DNA from: a virus
DNA: 23,935 bases
IMG/VR virus record: IMGVR_UViG_3300012920_000262
Span: 1 to 23,935 of that record
Direction: 5' to 3' (one strand)
The notes beneath the pieces were generated by a model. The model was not told where the DNA came from. It searched no databases and saw only the letters and a list, made by a program, of their open reading frames with translations. How positions within the stretch are numbered: position 1 is the first letter of the stretch; each line of letters opens with the position of its first letter. The translations under genes were made by a program, and so were the position numbers. Positions 13,638 through 21,226 of this stretch are shown here, piece by piece.

Positions 13638-13885
13638 TTCTTTTTAACCATTTGTTGTTGTAGATCAGCTTTATCTTTTTCAAATGCTAGATACTGCAAA
13701 CAACTATGTAGCTTTAGTTTTGTAACCTCATCAAACCTCCTGACATCACCCTGTGCCATTGCATAGATTGATTGATACCAAGACCATTTTTGATTAAATC
13801 CAGTTTCTGCTGTTGCAATTTGTCTGGAGTCTGTTTTTGTAAATAGCTCATTATACAATTCAATAATTCTTTCTTTAAATGATAA
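13634..13885 (-). CDS. -1 frameshift extension (83 codons) of the chaperone-like protein
   Basis: This frame has no convincing start of its own (the first candidate is TTG at 13858) but is open in the -1 frame directly after the T9 run at 13884-13892. Two TAG codons close the same frame 6 nt before the run. Read through a -1 slip, residues 1-161 of the upstream protein continue as LSFKERIIEL and then ATAETGFNQKWSWYQSIYAM, GDVRRFDEVTKLKLHSCLQY and so on to KKK, giving a 244-residue product. The W-W-Y-x-S and D(V)xxFDEVT pattern resembles a conserved phage segment I recognise, so it is unlikely to be a chance frame. It overlaps the frame-0 end by about 170 bp and ends 4 bp into the 88-aa gene. 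The alternative is a homopolymer length error in the assembly. Confidence 0.7.
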   Translation of the reverse strand, partial: LSFKERIIELYNELFTKTDSRQIATAETGFNQKWSWYQSIYAMAQGDVRRFDEVTKLKLHSCLQYLAFEKDKADLQQQMVKKK

Positions 13886-14367
13886 AAAAAAACAATGCTA
13901 CTAAACACTATATCTAATTTAACTTTTTTCATATCATACTTATTAGAATTTTCATAATCTTCTATTAAGTATTTATCTTTTCTAGTTACTGTTACTGGTC
14001 TATATAAAACATTAATAGCTTTATGCATTGACTGCCATTCAGGTAAGTATGTATCAAGATCAATATATTCACCAAAGCTCATATCATCTAGTTTAGGTAT
14101 AAAACCAAACTCAAGGCCATTATGATTAAATCTATCAATAAATTTAGGTTCTTCTTTAAACAGGTTGTTTATACTATTAGCAATGGTGTTTATATCTGTT
14201 GCCTTTATTTGTAATACATTTTTTAATGGTATGTTACAAAATATTTCAATCATCTTCTGCTTTAAAAAATTATCATCTTTATTCTTATCACTAATCTTTA
14301 ACCACTTCTGGTATTGTCCTAGTGTTATTTCACTTAATGATTCAGGTACTTTGATTGTTACTTTCAT
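13714..14367 (-). CDS. Tail assembly chaperone-like protein, frame-0 product (217 aa)
   Basis: First gene of the tail module. Residues 1-160 read as a conserved Bacteroidota phage protein: MKVTIKVPESLSEITLGQYQ, MIEIFCNIPLKNVLQIKA, then LEFGFIPKLDDMSFGEYIDL and MHKAINVLYRPV. The frame-0 end is MQWHRVMSGGLMRLQN. Val159-Phe160-Phe161 are encoded by GTT TTT TTT within a T9 run, where a -1 slip would give a second, longer product. Two nested products from a slippery site are the hallmark of G/GT-type tail assembly chaperones, which load the tape measure protein. The chaperone role is inferred from that architecture and place in the tail module, although the tape measure gene is 5 kb downstream rather than adjacent. 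Copy B of the 30-bp element is 7 nt upstream of the start. Confidence 0.78.
   Translation of the reverse strand: MKVTIKVPESLSEITLGQYQKWLKISDKNKDDNFLKQKMIEIFCNIPLKNVLQIKATDINTIANSINNLFKEEPKFIDRFNHNGLEFGFIPKLDDMSFGEYIDLDTYLPEWQSMHKAINVLYRPVTVTRKDKYLIEDYENSNKYDMKKVKLDIVFSSIVFFYHLKKELLNCIMSYLQKQTPDKLQQQKLDLIKNGLGINQSMQWHRVMSGGLMRLQN
13884..13893 (-). other. Slippery sequence for a putative programmed -1 ribosomal frameshift
   Basis: On the minus strand the bases are G followed by nine Ts and then A. In frame 0 the codons are GTT TTT TTT TAT, so a canonical T TTT TTT heptamer is in register. A -1 slip moves decoding to TTA, TCA and onward in the 83-codon extension. I did not find an obvious strong pseudoknot in the AT-rich sequence downstream by eye. 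Polymerase slippage or a sequencing error in the homopolymer are alternatives. Confidence 0.68.
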
Positions 14368-14412: not shown

Positions 14413-14444
14413 AAAAAAAAAGCCACCTTAAAAAGATGGCCTTT
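14413..14444 (-). terminator. Strong intrinsic terminator between terminase and tail genes
   Basis: On the minus strand GCCATCTT and AAGGTGGC pair through eight positions (one G-U) around a 3-nt loop, and nine Ts follow (14421-14413). The G-U pair forms only in the minus-strand RNA, so that strand is favoured. It should stop transcription coming from the terminase operon, or from the promoter at 14546-14575, before the tail module. Confidence 0.88.
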
Positions 14445-14540
14445 AGTTTTTGTGTTTTGTTTGTTTGATGCTTTGACTTTTACCTTTGTTTTTAAGAACC
14501 AATTGCGCACTTGGTAAATCTTACATACTTCATAGTTTTA
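14413..14540 (-). ncRNA. Candidate short RNA or attenuator leader (about 125 nt)
   Basis: A Bacteroidota-type promoter at 14546-14575 would start RNA near 14540, and the strong terminator at 14413-14444 would end it, leaving no long reading frame. The interval includes a 5-bp inverted repeat (ACCAA at 14498-14502, TTGGT at 14511-14515) enclosing a GCGC-containing loop, rare in this DNA. It also has a 13-codon frame, MKYVRFTKCAIGS, at 14492-14533, which could be a leader peptide. Either a stand-alone small RNA or an attenuator ahead of the tail operon would fit. Nothing here matches an RNA family I know. Confidence 0.35.
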
Positions 14541-14545
14541 TGATT

Positions 14546-14575
14546 CAAATATAAATATAATTATTTAATTACAAA
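14546..14575 (-). promoter_or_regulatory. Bacteroidota-type housekeeping promoter (TTTG - 18 nt - TATATTTG)
   Basis: On the minus strand TTTG (14575-14572) is followed after 18 nt by TATATTTG (14553-14546), a perfect match to the -7 consensus TAnnTTTG with the -33 TTTG at acceptable spacing. It lies in non-coding DNA after the terminase gene and points toward the terminator and tail operon. Such AT-rich DNA can produce the -7 box by chance; the paired box and non-coding location raise my confidence. Confidence 0.5.
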
Positions 14576-14631
14576 ACATTTTGCAACTTTTTTTTCTATA
14601 TCTTTTATTTTCTTATCTCTTCTTATCTTAT

Positions 14632-14664
14632 CTTAATGCTTAAGGGGGGCTTAAGCAATGCTTA
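14632..14664 (-). repeat. Three contiguous 11-bp iteron-like repeats after the large terminase gene
   Basis: On the minus strand, three 11-mers lie head to tail: TAAGCATTGCT, TAAGCCCCCCT and TAAGCATTAAG. The first overlaps the terminase stop codon. The second and third also form a stem, GCTTAAG / CTTAAGC, around a C5 loop. They are followed by a purine-rich tract with repeated GATAAG. A related array with the same 11-bp period, orientation and GATAAG flank lies inside the DUF1376-like gene at 20880-20912. The array marks the start of the only long non-coding gap in the window (14368-14661), so an origin-like or packaging-related role is plausible. Confidence 0.65.
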
Positions 14665-15885
14665 ATAAATGTAGTATTCTCCACCACTTTGTAGCTGGTA
14701 ACTAACTGCATATCTCAAAGCATCTAATGCGTGGTTGTAATTATCTACAGGTGTTTGTGATTTTCTTTCTAACCATACATAGTTATTTAATTCTTTGATT
14801 AGATCAGTACTATCACTATCTATTATTAAATCATAATCTTGTATCATACTAATACCATATGTTACACTACCTTGTCCTTTAATAGCTGGTACTATATTAC
14901 AATGTCTTGATAACTCATTAATTAATCTTGGTTCAGCACTATCACCAACAATTAAATCATTTCCTGCATACTTTACATTTAAGTTGGCTAATTCACTTGT
15001 AGTTAGTTTAGACTGATAGAAACACAGCTTAACATAAATAATCTTATTCTCTTTGTCTATGCTTGTTTTGACTAATGTACTAGGGTCGTTACTAAATCCA
15101 TAATCTTGGCCATAAACAACTTTATTAATATACTTAAATTCACCTATTGACCAATTAGAATATATAACCCCTTCTGCTTTGTCTAGCCAAGCACCTTGAA
15201 TAGTGTGCTTAAATCTATCTGGCCTTCTAGCTTGCATACTTTCTATTTGCTGTATGTAGCTGTTAGATAAATTATCTTTGTTATCTAGATATGTTGTGTG
15301 TATATAGGTAGTGTCATCTTTTGTTATATTGCTACCAGCTTGTACACCTCTACCTTCAAACCATCTTTGATATATAAAATGCTCTTTAGTTGTAGGGTTT
15401 AATATTAGTATTATTCTATTTTCTTGTGCTTTGTTTCTAACACTTAAATCTATCTTATCAAAAGTATCCTCATCTACTAATTCTTCTGCTTCATCCATCA
15501 CCCAAGTTGTGATGCCCTGTAGTGATTTGAGGTTTGCTGTCTGGTCTCCTGATGAGGTTTTAATACCTCTGAATATTATCTTGCTTCCATTACCTTTGTT
15601 AATAATCTCATCTTTGGTTATTTTAAAATCATCAACCTTATTAAGCATTTCAATCTTTTCTATGAATTCAGGTATGATAGATATATTTGCTGATCTTAAT
15701 GTATATCTAGTAAATAATATAGTGTGGCCTGCTTGATATGTTAGCAGTAGCAGTATGGTATTTATAGCAAATGATTTACCACTACCTCTACCACCTGTGA
15801 TAATAAAGTACCTTGCTTTAGATTCATCAAGTACTAAATACTTATTGTGTAGCTTTAATTCCTGCAATGAGTTTTCTGAAGTCAT
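14662..15885 (-). CDS. terL: Terminase large subunit, PBSX/XtmB-like (407 aa)
   Basis: The motor that packages and cuts phage DNA. The ATPase domain has Walker A GGRGSGKS at 31-38 and Walker B with TTWVMDEAEE, Asp131-Glu132. The C-terminal RNase H-like nuclease has Asp in YGQDYGFSNDPS near residue 250, Asp in IVGDSAEPRLINEL near 320, and NHALDALRYAV near 384-394. All expected acidic positions are present, so it should be active. The length of 407 residues is normal for the PBSX-type family. The gene overlaps the small subunit by 44 bp. Its stop codon lies in an 11-bp repeat array, and a 290-bp non-coding gap follows instead of the portal gene. Confidence 0.95.
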   Translation of the reverse strand: MTSENSLQELKLHNKYLVLDESKARYFIITGGRGSGKSFAINTILLLLTYQAGHTILFTRYTLRSANISIIPEFIEKIEMLNKVDDFKITKDEIINKGNGSKIIFRGIKTSSGDQTANLKSLQGITTWVMDEAEELVDEDTFDKIDLSVRNKAQENRIILILNPTTKEHFIYQRWFEGRGVQAGSNITKDDTTYIHTTYLDNKDNLSNSYIQQIESMQARRPDRFKHTIQGAWLDKAEGVIYSNWSIGEFKYINKVVYGQDYGFSNDPSTLVKTSIDKENKIIYVKLCFYQSKLTTSELANLNVKYAGNDLIVGDSAEPRLINELSRHCNIVPAIKGQGSVTYGISMIQDYDLIIDSDSTDLIKELNNYVWLERKSQTPVDNYNHALDALRYAVSYQLQSGGEYYIY

Positions 15886-16316: not shown

Positions 16317-16677
16317 ATTCATTAAATAGTTTTCTCATTGTATCTACTAATTCTTTTACACAACTACCACAGGTGGACATTTGTCTATGTTGATTGAATA
16401 TTCTATTATATATTTTTAGTAGTGCTGATTGTTCTGTTGGCCCTACTCTATTATTAATATGTTTAAATATATCTTTTAGTATTTCATATTCTTCTGCATT
16501 TAAGCATTCTGGTTTCTTGTAAGGAAACAAAGAATTTAATCTTTTTTTTCGTTTTTCACACCCGCAATCAATTCCCATTTTATCAAACACATAATCTACA
16601 CCAGCTTTAATGCCTGTTGCCTTTGTTATCTTTTCTATTGTATCTCCTAATCCTTTTGAAGTATTCTTACTTTTCAT
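16270..16677 (-). CDS. Cys-motif protein upstream of terminase (135 aa), unknown function
   Basis: The start MKSKNTSKGLGDTIEKITKA, then CGC (Cys38, Cys40), a basic KRKKRLN stretch, LFPYKKPECLN (Cys58) and CGSC (Cys103, Cys106) form a pattern I have seen in Bacteroidota phages directly upstream of terminase genes. The paired Cys sites could bind zinc or an Fe-S cluster. A packaging accessory or transcription role is possible, but no function is known to me. The gene overlaps the end of the sigma-like gene by 11 bp. Confidence 0.72.
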   Translation of the reverse strand: MKSKNTSKGLGDTIEKITKATGIKAGVDYVFDKMGIDCGCEKRKKRLNSLFPYKKPECLNAEEYEILKDIFKHINNRVGPTEQSALLKIYNRIFNQHRQMSTCGSCVKELVDTMRKLFNEYEYEQETQAEKGSRR

Positions 16678-17188
16678 ATAGTTTCTTTTTAATATTCTTT
16701 TTTGCTCTTGCTATAGTATTGTAAACTGTTACGTGGCCTAACCTAGTTTCTTTAGCTAGCTTTCTAATACTATTAAACTGCTTAACATAAAGTGTAAATA
16801 GTTTTCTATCAAACCAGTACATTCCATTTAGTATATCTATTACTTTGTTGTTAAATTCTTCTAGTTCAAATTCATTTTCTTCTACTATGTTTTTTATTAC
16901 TGCATTATCATCTTTAGGTATTCTGTTTTCTAGGTTTGCAGTTTCTTGTATAATTCTTTCTATTGTTCTTTTTATTATACCATAGTGTGGTTTATCATTT
17001 ATTATTAATTGCTGTGTTTCTAGTTTACCATCGTGTACTTGTTCATATAGTTTTATGTACATTTCTTGTACAATATCTTGTACAACTTTCTTATCTTTCT
17101 TATATAATAAATTATTTGCAATTTCACAAAAATCATTGTGGTAAAGTGCAAGGTGTTCTAATATATTATTTAGCTCTACCTTCTTCAA
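16667..17188 (-). CDS. Sigma-70-like transcription factor (173 aa)
   Basis: The protein has an ECF-like layout: a region-2-like helix with VVQDIVQEMYIKLYEQ near residues 34-50, a variable acidic middle, and a region-4-like HTH at about 130-165 (WFDRKLFTLYVKQ, SIRKLAKETRLGHVTVYNTI). Such proteins redirect host RNA polymerase. It precedes the terminase genes, so it is well placed to switch on late genes; the 30-bp elements at 4987-5016 and 14375-14404 could be its targets. The start is uncertain: no ATG lies at the 5' end, and the frame opens with TTG at 17186-17188, overlapping the previous gene by 23 bp. The next Met is about residue 43 and would remove much of region 2. It may act as an activator rather than a true sigma factor. 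Confidence 0.68.
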   Translation of the reverse strand: MKKVELNNILEHLALYHNDFCEIANNLLYKKDKKVVQDIVQEMYIKLYEQVHDGKLETQQLIINDKPHYGIIKRTIERIIQETANLENRIPKDDNAVIKNIVEENEFELEEFNNKVIDILNGMYWFDRKLFTLYVKQFNSIRKLAKETRLGHVTVYNTIARAKKNIKKKLYEK

Positions 17189-17676: not shown

Positions 17677-17774
17677 TTCTTAATAAAATAAGTTATTAAT
17701 GTTATTGGTAGCCATATAGGTGTTAATATTAAACCTATCAATATTGCTATTAAATCAAGTATCTTTTTTTTCAT
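17655..17774 (-). CDS. Single-pass membrane peptide (39 aa)
   Basis: ATG at 17772-17774. The peptide MKKKILDLIAILIGLIL is followed by a hydrophobic stretch to about residue 31 and a basic C-terminus (KKWQRKEH). This is the layout of a one-helix inner-membrane protein. It overlaps both neighbours by 20 bp. It could be an accessory to host membrane processes or a superinfection factor; holin activity cannot be claimed since no endolysin is nearby. Confidence 0.55.
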   Translation of the reverse strand: MKKKILDLIAILIGLILTPIWLPITLITYFIKKWQRKEH

Positions 17775-17889
17775 AGTAACTACTACATATTGCAACTGCT
17801 TGTTCTTTGCTCTTACCTTCTTTTATAACTTCAGGTATACACCTCATCATAAAATCTTTTCTAGTTTCTCCTGCTTTTGGTTTAGGCAT
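17755..17889 (-). CDS. Small Cys-containing protein (44 aa), MPKPKxGE family-like
   Basis: ATG at 17887-17889. The protein starts MPKPKAGETRKDFMMRCIPE and continues with EGKSKEQAVAICSSYYEKK. It resembles a short module (a Cys in DFxxRC and a second Cys in AxxxCxxxY) that I associate with phage and prophage proteins of many bacteria, sometimes attached to head proteases. Function unknown. It overlaps the next start by 20 bp. Confidence 0.65.
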   Translation of the reverse strand: MPKPKAGETRKDFMMRCIPEVIKEGKSKEQAVAICSSYYEKKDT

Positions 17890-17890
17890 C

Positions 17891-18001
17891 TTAATTTCTA
17901 TTAAATAAATAATGTGTTAACATTCCTGCAAAGAATGATACTATACATACTACAAACATTACATAATATATATAATCCATATTTATCATATATAAATTCA
18001 T
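17891..18001 (-). CDS. Single-pass membrane peptide (36 aa)
   Basis: ATG at 17999-18001, directly after the 85-aa gene stops. MDYIYYVMFVVCIVSFFAGM includes a strongly hydrophobic helix of about 20 residues, and a short polar tail (HYLFNRN) follows. In-frame ATGs four and seven codons later are alternative starts. With the 39-aa gene nearby it makes two tiny membrane proteins within 350 bp. Function unknown. Confidence 0.5.
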   Translation of the reverse strand: MNLYMINMDYIYYVMFVVCIVSFFAGMLTHYLFNRN

Positions 18002-18002
18002 A

Positions 18003-19131: not shown

Positions 19132-19977
19132 TTATAATCCACAGTAACCAGAATCACATTCTGTGAAATCAGTTTCAAATAGTTCTGTTTGTGGTTGCCA
19201 TTTAATTACTTCATCATATGATAAGTTTTTTGATTTGTACCATACGTCTTTTTCGTGTTTTATTCTTTCTTTAGAAGCAAACCATTTGATTTTATTTGGG
19301 TGTTTTTTATACATAGTATTTATAAGTAAAGGTGTTTTATGAAAACACCCTACACAGTTATTCATCCAAGCAAATCTTACAGGCTTGTCTTTCCAATACT
19401 CCTCTATGTTATCTTTGTAAATATTATCTTTTATTAATGGGAATGTTGGCTTTTGCCATTCAATAACTCCCCATTTATTTCTTGTACCTCTTTTGCCTAC
19501 TATTGCTTTCATTTCTAAACAACCATTACTATTTGTTTTTGCAATAGTTCTTTTAGCTCTACCTTGTTCATTTGCTCTAAAACCAACATTAAATTTTGCT
19601 GGTTTATTTATATATTTTTGCCACCAGTAAAACATAGGCTCTAATTTCATTTGTGTTGTGCAATATCTTCTTAATGGGTCAGGTAAAGTTCCAGCAGTAT
19701 TTAAAACCTCATCAAATGTTTTACCAGTCACCCAATGTATTTCTTGACCTATAAACTGCTCTAAATCTAATATTGTGTTTATTATTACATCATCTTCTAA
19801 AGTACCAATAAACTCTGTACCTAATTTATCAGATACTAACTGCCTTACTTTTGCATCAGGATACATACAGCTTTTGTCATCTGTTCTTACTAATGCAAAT
19901 ACATTATAATCTGCTGGATAATTAGCAGCTATATATGCTGATGTTTTACCACCTGATATACTATTTACTGTTTTCAT
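19132..19977 (-). CDS. PAPS-reductase-like PP-loop enzyme (281 aa)
   Basis: The adenylating PP-loop SGGKTS is at residues 8-13 (MKTVNSISGGKTSAYIA). RRYCTTQMKLEP with Cys106 is the usual family signature in the middle, NEQGRAKRT follows, and the C-terminus carries NNCVGCFHK (Cys208, Cys211) and CDSGYCG (Cys274, Cys279), possibly for a metal or Fe-S site. Members activate a substrate with ATP, then transfer sulfur or reduce it. Phage members of this type are common but their substrates are mostly unproven. A neighbouring DNA methyltransferase and DNA-metabolism genes make a role in phage DNA or tRNA modification (compare DndC-like proteins) a reasonable guess. The gene overlaps the ATPase gene by 4 bp. 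Confidence 0.8.
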   Translation of the reverse strand: MKTVNSISGGKTSAYIAANYPADYNVFALVRTDDKSCMYPDAKVRQLVSDKLGTEFIGTLEDDVIINTILDLEQFIGQEIHWVTGKTFDEVLNTAGTLPDPLRRYCTTQMKLEPMFYWWQKYINKPAKFNVGFRANEQGRAKRTIAKTNSNGCLEMKAIVGKRGTRNKWGVIEWQKPTFPLIKDNIYKDNIEEYWKDKPVRFAWMNNCVGCFHKTPLLINTMYKKHPNKIKWFASKERIKHEKDVWYKSKNLSYDEVIKWQPQTELFETDFTECDSGYCGL

Positions 19978-20822
19978 TTTAATACATTTAAACCACCTAT
20001 TGTAAAACCTAATCCTTTGTTGTAATCAAAACACAAAGGTTTATCTAGTGTAGGTGTGCCACCAGTTTCCTTATCTTTAATTTTTTCTACTCTTACTTGT
20101 GTTAGCATCCAGCTTTCAGGTGAATTAATAAACCTGTGTATAGATAGAAATGAATCACATCTATTAGCAAACACTTGGCCACCTTCTACATCACTTTTTC
20201 TAGGTGGTTGTATGTAACCAGCATATTCGTGGTTTGGTGGATATACTCTCCTTGCACTTTCTGTCATTGGGTGTGTCATTACATATATTGCTTTACCTGT
20301 AGTATTGCAGAACTCTCTAATATCATTACATATTAAATAATTCCTTTCATATTGGTTTACTTTTCTATCGTGGTTTAATCCTGTAAATGGGTCAATAGCA
20401 CAAGCATCACAATCACTTTCTTTAAATAACTTAAGTAAATCTTTATGGTTGTACATTTTCTTGTTACTAACAAATGTGAACCATTTACCTATTTTATTGT
20501 TGTATTCTTCTATTTCTAGTTTGTTTAAATCTACTAATTTACTTTGTGAATACATTTGAATTAAATCTCTTGTTAATTGTCCTGCGCTATTTTCACCTGA
20601 CCATATTAACCACTTTACATTGTGCTTAACACTTAAACACAAAAAATACCATAACATAAAATTAGTTTTACCTACATTATCCAAGCCAACTATTACTGTG
20701 AAACTACCACGTTTGTGAACATACCACTTATCAAGCTCATTACCAATGCCTAAACCTCTTTGTATTTTACCTTCTTTAAATGCAAATAAGTATTTTAACT
20801 GTTCTTCTTGCTTTACTATCAT
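19974..20822 (-). CDS. RecA/DnaB-fold replicative ATPase, RepA-like (282 aa)
   Basis: Walker A is GLDNVGKT at 46-53 (FTVIVGLDNVGKTNFML) and Walker B is CDACAIDPF with Asp143. Further along are VMTHPM and QVRVEKIKDKETG, which resemble the core of hexameric RecA-fold helicases of the RepA/DnaB kind. At 282 residues there is no room for a DnaB N-terminal domain, so it may be a helicase core or a helicase loader. It follows a DUF1376-like gene with iteron-like repeats, with a 4-bp overlap, and this pair is the likely replication-initiation unit of the phage. Confidence 0.78.
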   Translation of the reverse strand: MIVKQEEQLKYLFAFKEGKIQRGLGIGNELDKWYVHKRGSFTVIVGLDNVGKTNFMLWYFLCLSVKHNVKWLIWSGENSAGQLTRDLIQMYSQSKLVDLNKLEIEEYNNKIGKWFTFVSNKKMYNHKDLLKLFKESDCDACAIDPFTGLNHDRKVNQYERNYLICNDIREFCNTTGKAIYVMTHPMTESARRVYPPNHEYAGYIQPPRKSDVEGGQVFANRCDSFLSIHRFINSPESWMLTQVRVEKIKDKETGGTPTLDKPLCFDYNKGLGFTIGGLNVLK

Positions 20823-21226
20823 TTTATAAAGGTTGTAGTAAGGTATGGGTCTTTATTATCTTTTTTTATCTTATCTTTTCTTAATGCTTGAGCATTGCTT
20901 GAGCTTTGCTTGTTTTGTGTGGTTTTACCACCTTTTCTGCCAGCATTAACTCTTTTAATGTGTGCTGCTTTTCTTTCTTCAAATTGTTCATCTAACCATT
21001 TAATTCTAATGTTATTACCATCTGATTTAAGTAATTGACTATCAAGTAGTTTGCTCCATTGTTTAGGTACTAGTGATTTTATTTGATCTCTGCTTACATT
21101 ACATTCTTTGCTCCAGTAGTAGCAACATATTTTCATAAATGCACCTTGCACATCTAAATCCATAAACATTATTGAACCTGTGATCCATTGGTTAGGATAA
21201 AATTTAAAGTATGGTAATTCTTTCAT
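20819..21226 (-). CDS. DUF1376-like replication protein (135 aa)
   Basis: Residues 1-75 have the layout of DUF1376 / replisome-organizer-like N-domains: YFKFYPNQWITGSIMFMDLD, then QGAFMKICCYYWSKECNVS and WSKLLDSQLLKSDGNNIRIK, a winged-helix-like domain. The C-terminal 50 residues are a basic, Gln/Ser/Lys-rich linker (RVNAGRKGGKTTQ and onward) that is probably disordered. Part of the linker is encoded by three contiguous 11-bp repeats (20880-20912), much as lambda O holds its origin iterons in its own gene. The gene is coupled to the ATPase gene by a 4-bp overlap. I infer origin binding and helicase loading. Confidence 0.72.
   Translation of the reverse strand: MKELPYFKFYPNQWITGSIMFMDLDVQGAFMKICCYYWSKECNVSRDQIKSLVPKQWSKLLDSQLLKSDGNNIRIKWLDEQFEERKAAHIKRVNAGRKGGKTTQNKQSSSNAQALRKDKIKKDNKDPYLTTTFIK
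20880..20912 (-). repeat. Three contiguous 11-bp iteron-like repeats inside the DUF1376-like gene
   Basis: On the minus strand CAAGCAAAGCT, CAAGCAATGCT and CAAGCATTAAG lie head to tail, in the linker-coding part of the gene. A purine- and A-rich tract with AAGATAAGAT follows, which could melt easily. A second array, with 24 of 33 identical bases plus the same AAGATAAG flank, is at 14632-14664. The arrangement resembles a phage origin built of iterons plus an AT-rich unwinding region. That the initiator is the protein encoded here is an inference. Confidence 0.62.

Follow-up and report, generated by a model that had tools for sequence, protein, structure and literature searches.

Why would an uncultured marine phage carry the same three short repeats twice, once inside a gene and once between genes? 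The question is raised by positions 14632 to 14664 of IMG/VR virus record IMGVR_UViG_3300012920_000262, of which a stretch of 23,935 nucleotides, positions 1 to 23,935 (hereafter the window), was analysed in full. Here, at the end of terL, the gene for the large subunit of the terminase, three 11-bp units (the late array) resemble an array that lies 6.25 kb away, at 20880 to 20912, within a gene for a DUF1376-like, initiator-like protein (the coding array). We consider it probable, at roughly 0.63, that both arrays are bound by that protein, with the coding array as the primary origin of replication and the late array as a site of the type of oriR in phage SPP1.

Read from 14664 to 14632 on the minus strand, where the predicted phage genes lie, the late array is TAAGCATTGCT TAAGCCCCCCT TAAGCATTAAG, then ATAAGATAAGAAGAGATAAG, or three 11-bp units followed by a purine-rich AAGATAAGATAAG tract. 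The coding array, read from 20912 to 20880 on the same strand, is CAAGCAAAGCT CAAGCAATGCT CAAGCATTAAG, then AAAAGATAAGAT, and a conserved purine- or A-rich tract adjoins both arrays. Each unit approximates the palindrome AAGC-N3-GCTT, and the GCTTAAGC cores recur every 11 bp, once per helical turn. The GCTTAAG/CTTAAGC stem to which a sequence-only reading of this DNA had drawn attention can form, but only because the units are near-palindromic with recurring cores, and it is no separate feature. The run of six C residues that was also singled out loses its interest, as the spacer bases vary freely among relatives (ATTG, CACC, CACT, CCAC). That the late array is non-coding apart from the terminase stop codon is correct, the terL stop being the TAA within unit 1. 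The gap that it opens had been described as the longest without genes; by the list of open reading frames it is one of the two longest, that at 17677-18002 being slightly longer.

A recount on both minus-strand sequences gave the reported 24 identical positions of 33 over the units and 9 of 10 in the flank, or 36 of 49 for the units with flank. The chance expectation, which the sequence-only reading had proposed to compute, is low: a 24/33 match to the coding array arose in 3 of 1000 dinucleotide shuffles and a 36/49 match in 1 of 500, and the phased motif [CT]AAGCN4CT[CTA]AAGCN4CT[CTA]AAGC, present twice in the window, was absent from 1000 shuffles. Within one genome the pair is thus unlikely to be accidental (3/1000), as had been argued, though not overwhelmingly so; these odds are modest evidence, and the pairing becomes certain because it is conserved in relatives. 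When a weight matrix was derived from 15 other genomes, using their coding arrays and leaving out that of the window, it scored the coding array at 62.6 bits and the late array at 37.8 bits (at 14641), with -10.3 for the next-best place in the window and 10.6 for the highest score in 300 shuffled windows. The whole-genome search for further copies thus found exactly two sites in the window and none at random places. The same two-site result was obtained in 14 other genomes, a duplicate in G015 being due to terminal overlap.

Pattern searches of IMG/VR (599 stretches for terL patterns and 125 for initiator patterns) provided the relatives with which this arrangement could be compared. The coding array is found in every complete initiator relative inspected, and the late array lies downstream of terL in most close relatives. 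By a whole-record scan, the number of arrays is exactly two in nearly all near-complete relatives (~30 kb); they share the gene strand and lie 4.3-9 kb apart on the circular map, with one late copy per genome and its strand constant. Two third matches were met: the one in G015 is the overlap of the contig ends, and the one in G014 lacks the units. In G021 and a few fragments the contig stops before or within the late site. Loss of the arrays in close relatives, which the sequence-only reading had named as a finding that would speak against it, was not found. More distant terL records (e.g. G012, G030, G024) have no array of this type, and in the moderately close G039 the coding array is shifted and none follows terL.

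The late form itself was sought with the pattern AAGCN4CTNAAGCATTWAGATAAGA in 2.9 million viral contigs of IMG/VR; 89 stretches matched, and the 80 loci listed are the basis of what follows. All of them lie on the terL strand, downstream of terL where the contig includes it and upstream of the homologue of the gene at 13714-14367 where the contig includes that gene. The array stands 8-10 bp from the terL stop in many loci and 29-994 bp in others, and the next gene follows at 89-784 bp. The larger distances to terL arise because genes such as a methylase gene entered between, and since the array keeps its position in spite of such insertions it is a feature in its own right rather than an appendage of terL. 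The conserved late block of ~45 bp consists of the three units and the purine-rich tract, with an information content of 1.5-1.6 bits per column that falls to 0.2-0.3 beyond it. At either end the block extends past the search pattern, and the columns there are conserved almost as well as those that the pattern covers.

The coding array bears the marks of selection on DNA as well. Across the 84 distinct initiator genes compared, the 16 array codons have a normalised synonymous diversity of 0.08, as opposed to 0.43 upstream (P 5e-7) and 0.37 downstream (P 0.003), and these codons are the lowest 16-codon stretch of the gene. The lysine codons AAA and AAG are each fixed, at different positions of the array. 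With its synonymous codons almost frozen, the coding array is therefore constrained as DNA.

Moreover, the two arrays change together. In the divergent clade B (G005, G006, L047, L079, L201) the array is altered in both copies, with the forms GCGTTCGCTACANTTTCGCTAAGC late and GCGAACGCTAARGATTCGCTWAGC coding; in L079, for example, the initiator gene has AAAGCGAACGCTAAGGATTCGCTAAGCATA and the site after terL has TAAGCGTTCGCTACACTTTCGCTAAGCATA. The middle unit of clade B is without its AAGC half in both copies, and the third unit is still 22 bp from the first. Identity between coding and late arrays over units 1-2 is 0.73 within clade B and 0.62-0.75 within the clade of the window, and only 0.30-0.49 between clades. 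Arrays paired within their own genome are 0.67 identical against 0.58 for random pairing, and none of 20,000 random pairings reached this value, a P that overstates independence because the permutation takes genomes as independent and the main contrast lies between two clades (clade B, n=5). Within clade A, co-variation between A1 and A2 is not resolved by identity and appears only in the G+C content of the spacers, which for the coding and late arrays is 0.33 and 0.30 in A1, 0.85 and 0.78 in A2, and 0.36 and 0.29 in B. A common reader of both sites explains this better than gene conversion, because the flanks of the arrays are unrelated and the two arrays of one genome are not identical.

Such an arrangement has a well-studied parallel. 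The two origins of SPP1 consist of direct repeats and an AT-rich element, with oriL inside gene 38 and oriR intergenic among the late genes; both are bound by gp38 (G38P), they lie ~12-13 kb apart on the circular map, and oriR-bound gp38 is thought to stall a fork and start concatemer synthesis (PMC6316719, PMC3485210). As in this Bacillus subtilis phage, one array here is in the initiator gene and the other is intergenic in the late region. Unlike in SPP1, the nearest isolates of the clade infect marine Bacteroidota, an unrelated host group, the initiator is DUF1376-like and only 135 aa long, the units are near-palindromic and phased at 11 bp, and the late copy is at terL. The likeness to oriL and oriR is thus one of anatomy, drawn from published descriptions of SPP1 and not from its sequence, and we do not claim a place for the arrays among proven dual origins.

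If the parallel is sound, each site would comprise phased 11-bp iterons and an adjacent, easily melted purine-rich tract. The coding array would be the early, primary origin, housed in the gene of the initiator itself like those of SPP1 (gene 38) and lambda (O). The protein encoded at 20819-21226 would stack on one face of the helix at the GCT[T/C/A]AAGC steps, 11 bp apart, open the adjoining AAGATAAG tract and recruit the helicase that appears to be encoded next door, where a DnaB/primase-helicase-like gene directly follows. At the late array, the tract at 14592-14631 is the proposed unwinding side; by nearest-neighbour stability, 14521-14570 ranks second least stable among the 50-bp stretches of the window and 14537-14636 second least stable among those of 100 bp. 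The initiator bound there may start late replication or stall incoming forks, after which recombination-dependent synthesis of concatemers, the substrate for packaging, would begin near terL. Paired origins and an initiator-controlled switch between replication and late genes were among the options of the sequence-only reading, and both fit the two arrays, the copy in the initiator gene, the selection and the co-variation; binding, strand opening, origin activity and the switch are what we infer from them. More specifically, and only tentatively, at somewhat under even odds, we suggest for the late array a dedicated role beside terL, as a second origin or a fork barrier bound by the initiator, in taking replication from theta to concatemer synthesis. 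This would be a dual-origin switch in an uncultured clade of marine Bacteroidota phages whose initiator family differs from that of SPP1.

These dual arrays bear on how general the paired-origin strategy of SPP1 is, as they offer a natural series of genomes that have retained both sites, with shifts by inserted genes and joint changes of sequence. In the literature searched, no link of the DUF1376 family to a replication origin was found. Used as a sequence signature, the array may also help to locate origins in uncultured Bacteroidota phages, and the co-variation set could yield protein-DNA contacts.

Other systems share parts of this design. In lambda O and ori-lambda, and in lambdoid origins generally, iterons lie within the initiator gene and are followed by an AT-rich tract, much as the iteron-like coding array and its A-rich tract do here. 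To our knowledge, lambda has no second distant array, and its iterons are longer and its initiator unrelated. In iteron plasmid origins, a Rep protein acts at tandem, phased direct repeats beside an AT-rich unwinding element (PMC4980987). Unlike in these plasmids, no Rep protein of those families was seen here. Iterons of such plasmids lie outside the rep gene, in units of ~17-22 bp. Closer to home, Leeuwenhoekiella phage Arctus_1 and Flavobacterium phage morran9-1 have, in the corresponding part of the gene, phased 11-bp units of the type GCAATGC and after them a purine-rich AAGAGAAGATAAG tract; since distant isolates carry phased units and a purine tract there, the coding array, to judge from these sequences, looks older in this gene family than the clade of the window. 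They differ in that their second-best phased array is ~180 bp upstream in the same gene and not at terL. The initiator genes of these isolates thus seem to hold two phased arrays (L208, at 8544 and 8725; L210, at 14705 and 14885; the second-best of each pair is named first). Candidates for a distant second array in Arctus_1, phi10:1 and morran9-1 were rejected, as their self-matches of 30-34/44 are what purine-rich DNA would give.

The protein assigned the role of initiator was examined in its own right. It has no Pfam match itself; DUF1376 (PF07120) is matched by 5 of 37 aligned relatives, with a best E of 3.5e-4, and the homologue in morran9-1 is annotated as PF07120. The predicted core, residues 20-90, has a predicted local distance difference test (pLDDT) score of 84-92 and the order H-H-H-E-E-H, and winged-helix domains make up most of its best structural matches (ORC2, Z 5.5; the N-terminal domain of DnaD, Z 4.5), with all of the matches below the level of a clear one. 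From this model the N-terminal domain is probably a winged helix, with Z values of 4.5-5.5 being too low to prove kinship. A sequence search at E <= 1 found no homologue of solved structure. When bacterial genomes were scanned for the initiator profile, only three distant matches came up (32-34% identity), which therefore give no link to a prophage or host.

Several observations weigh against two sites for one initiator. The Pfam support for DUF1376 is weak and no helicase loader was identified. The coding site is no strong minimum of stability, ranking only at the 92nd percentile, and the co-variation test suffers from the dependence among genomes described above. In Arctus_1, morran9-1 and phi10:1 no copy outside the initiator gene is clearly above chance, so a distant second site is not essential in all relatives. 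GC skew is uniform along the window, changes sign nowhere and breaks at neither array, although it is uninformative because all genes point one way, which could by itself cause uniform skew.

The main rival keeps the initiator and changes its task. In this explanation the late array is an initiator-bound operator or road-block that controls the cargo genes and the downstream late operon and is no origin. It is a distinctly less probable account, but one with a natural basis, as the array stands where the terminase genes meet the late operon and has terminators and promoter-like sequences close by, both in the window and in relatives. However, an operator needs no purine-rich tract, and this tract is conserved too, in the same order as at the coding array; furthermore, the promoter-like elements come and go (the next gene being 89-784 bp away) and the array stays. 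We regard it as rather improbable that the array instead marks a place of exchange, either as short homology for gene swaps and cargo insertion or as the remnant of a duplicated end of the initiator gene. On either side of it, a methylase gene and numerous small genes of unrelated kinds have been inserted, and the C-terminus of the initiator beyond the coding array is swapped among relatives as well. Yet a remnant should have decayed and an insertion site should have multiplied, and neither is consistent with one copy per genome, an invariant 11-bp phase and the matched changes of both arrays in clade B.

A packaging start (pac) near terS/terL, read by the small terminase, was another option of the sequence-only reading. 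The place directly after terL would suit it, and several near-complete contigs end within 3 kb of the late array. It found no support: a packaging site would not be expected in the initiator gene, 4-9 kb away, yet the same sequence is there too; the array is kept when displaced to 300-1000 bp beyond terL; and contig ends scatter across the entire map, with no fixed place and no accumulation at the array. The two ends of a single near-complete contig map to one place, which differs between genomes, the pattern that circularly permuted or circular genomes would give. As the initiator gene has the sequence too and the ends do not gather at the late array, packaging is slightly less credible still than exchange. 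Lastly, chance resemblance in AT-rich DNA would leave some doubt if only this genome were known (24/33 in 3/1000 shuffles, P 0.003), but as the position is fixed across the 80 loci listed and nearly all near-complete close relatives have the array, we give it practically no weight. Two sites read by one initiator is thus the account that we prefer.

Table. Positions in the window of the two arrays and of the genes and DNA around them
Feature	Positions	Strand	Remarks
Late array, unit 1	14654..14664	-	TAAGCATTGCT; position kept in relatives
Late array, unit 2	14643..14653	-	TAAGCCCCCCT
Late array, unit 3	14632..14642	-	TAAGCATTAAG; best conserved of the three units
Purine-rich tract ATAAGATAAGAAGAGATAAG...	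14592..14631	-	conserved to ~45 bp past the first unit
AT-rich DNA beside late array	14521..14636		nearest-neighbour stability
terL, terminase large subunit	14662..15885	-	PF04466, E 6e-35
Conserved gene, always downstream of late array	13714..14367	-	phrog_32199
Coding array	20880..20912	-	CAAGCAAAGCT CAAGCAATGCT CAAGCATTAAG; within the initiator-like gene
Purine-rich tract AAAAGATAAGATAAAAAAAGATAAT	20855..20879	-	adjoins coding array; side and strand as at late array
Initiator-like gene, 135 aa	20819..21226	-	phrog_29280; weak phrog_9327 'primosomal protein'; DUF1376-like
DnaB/primase-helicase-like ATPase gene	19974..20822	-	phrog_18375, E 1e-24; directly downstream of initiator gene

The protein tail that follows the coding array is replaced by unrelated ones in relatives (L083, L011, L110, L111, L127), among them DPYLTTTFIK, KYANDNLLKVNDEVQKLLDQ and a 204-aa form, as if the coding array marked the border of a module. 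The gap beside the late array is likewise variable. In the window it carries, on the minus strand at 14418-14560, a short cassette resembling a transcription unit, with a -7 box of the Bacteroidota type (TATATTTG, 14553-14546), a reading frame of 13 codons beginning ATGAAGTATGTAAGATTTACC and, at 14444-14418, a terminator. L274 has this cassette downstream of the late array, and L033 has it upstream. No known RNA family was found in the gap, in the window or in ten relatives.

In relatives, the stretch from the late array to the next gene is a hotspot for cargo (e.g. L220, L225, L227, L247, L262, L279). The cassettes have a common order: a near-constant promoter-like stretch (AAAAAAGTTTTGTAGTTTATAAATATATTTATATATT), one of many unrelated frames of 50-112 aa, and a terminator. 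In many of them (L220, L225, L227, L161, L197) the terminator is preceded by a conserved, RNA-like element, GAGGCAGCCGA-N-TTAGCGTAAGTCCTC. Some copies have GAGC/GCTC in place of GAGG/CCTC, and one has GCC/GGC in place of GTC/GAC in the inner hairpin. Two-sided change occurs at only one pair of its alignment, and the element has no Rfam match. At the cargo position of L276 there are instead ~450 nt without reading frames, with many short G runs and no Rfam match. A further element, GTAGGTAGTCGGCAAAAGAGCGTTACCTAC-T8, is a hairpin that resembles a terminator and has a loop that hardly varies (e.g. L119, L154, L201, L276). In clade A it precedes the next gene, and in clade B (L201, L296) it immediately precedes the late array. 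A small gene on the minus strand (16667-17188), a short way upstream of the terminase genes, has a weak helix-turn-helix match; because the gene in the corresponding place in Nonlabens phage P12024S is annotated with Sigma-70 region 2, its product may be a late sigma factor.
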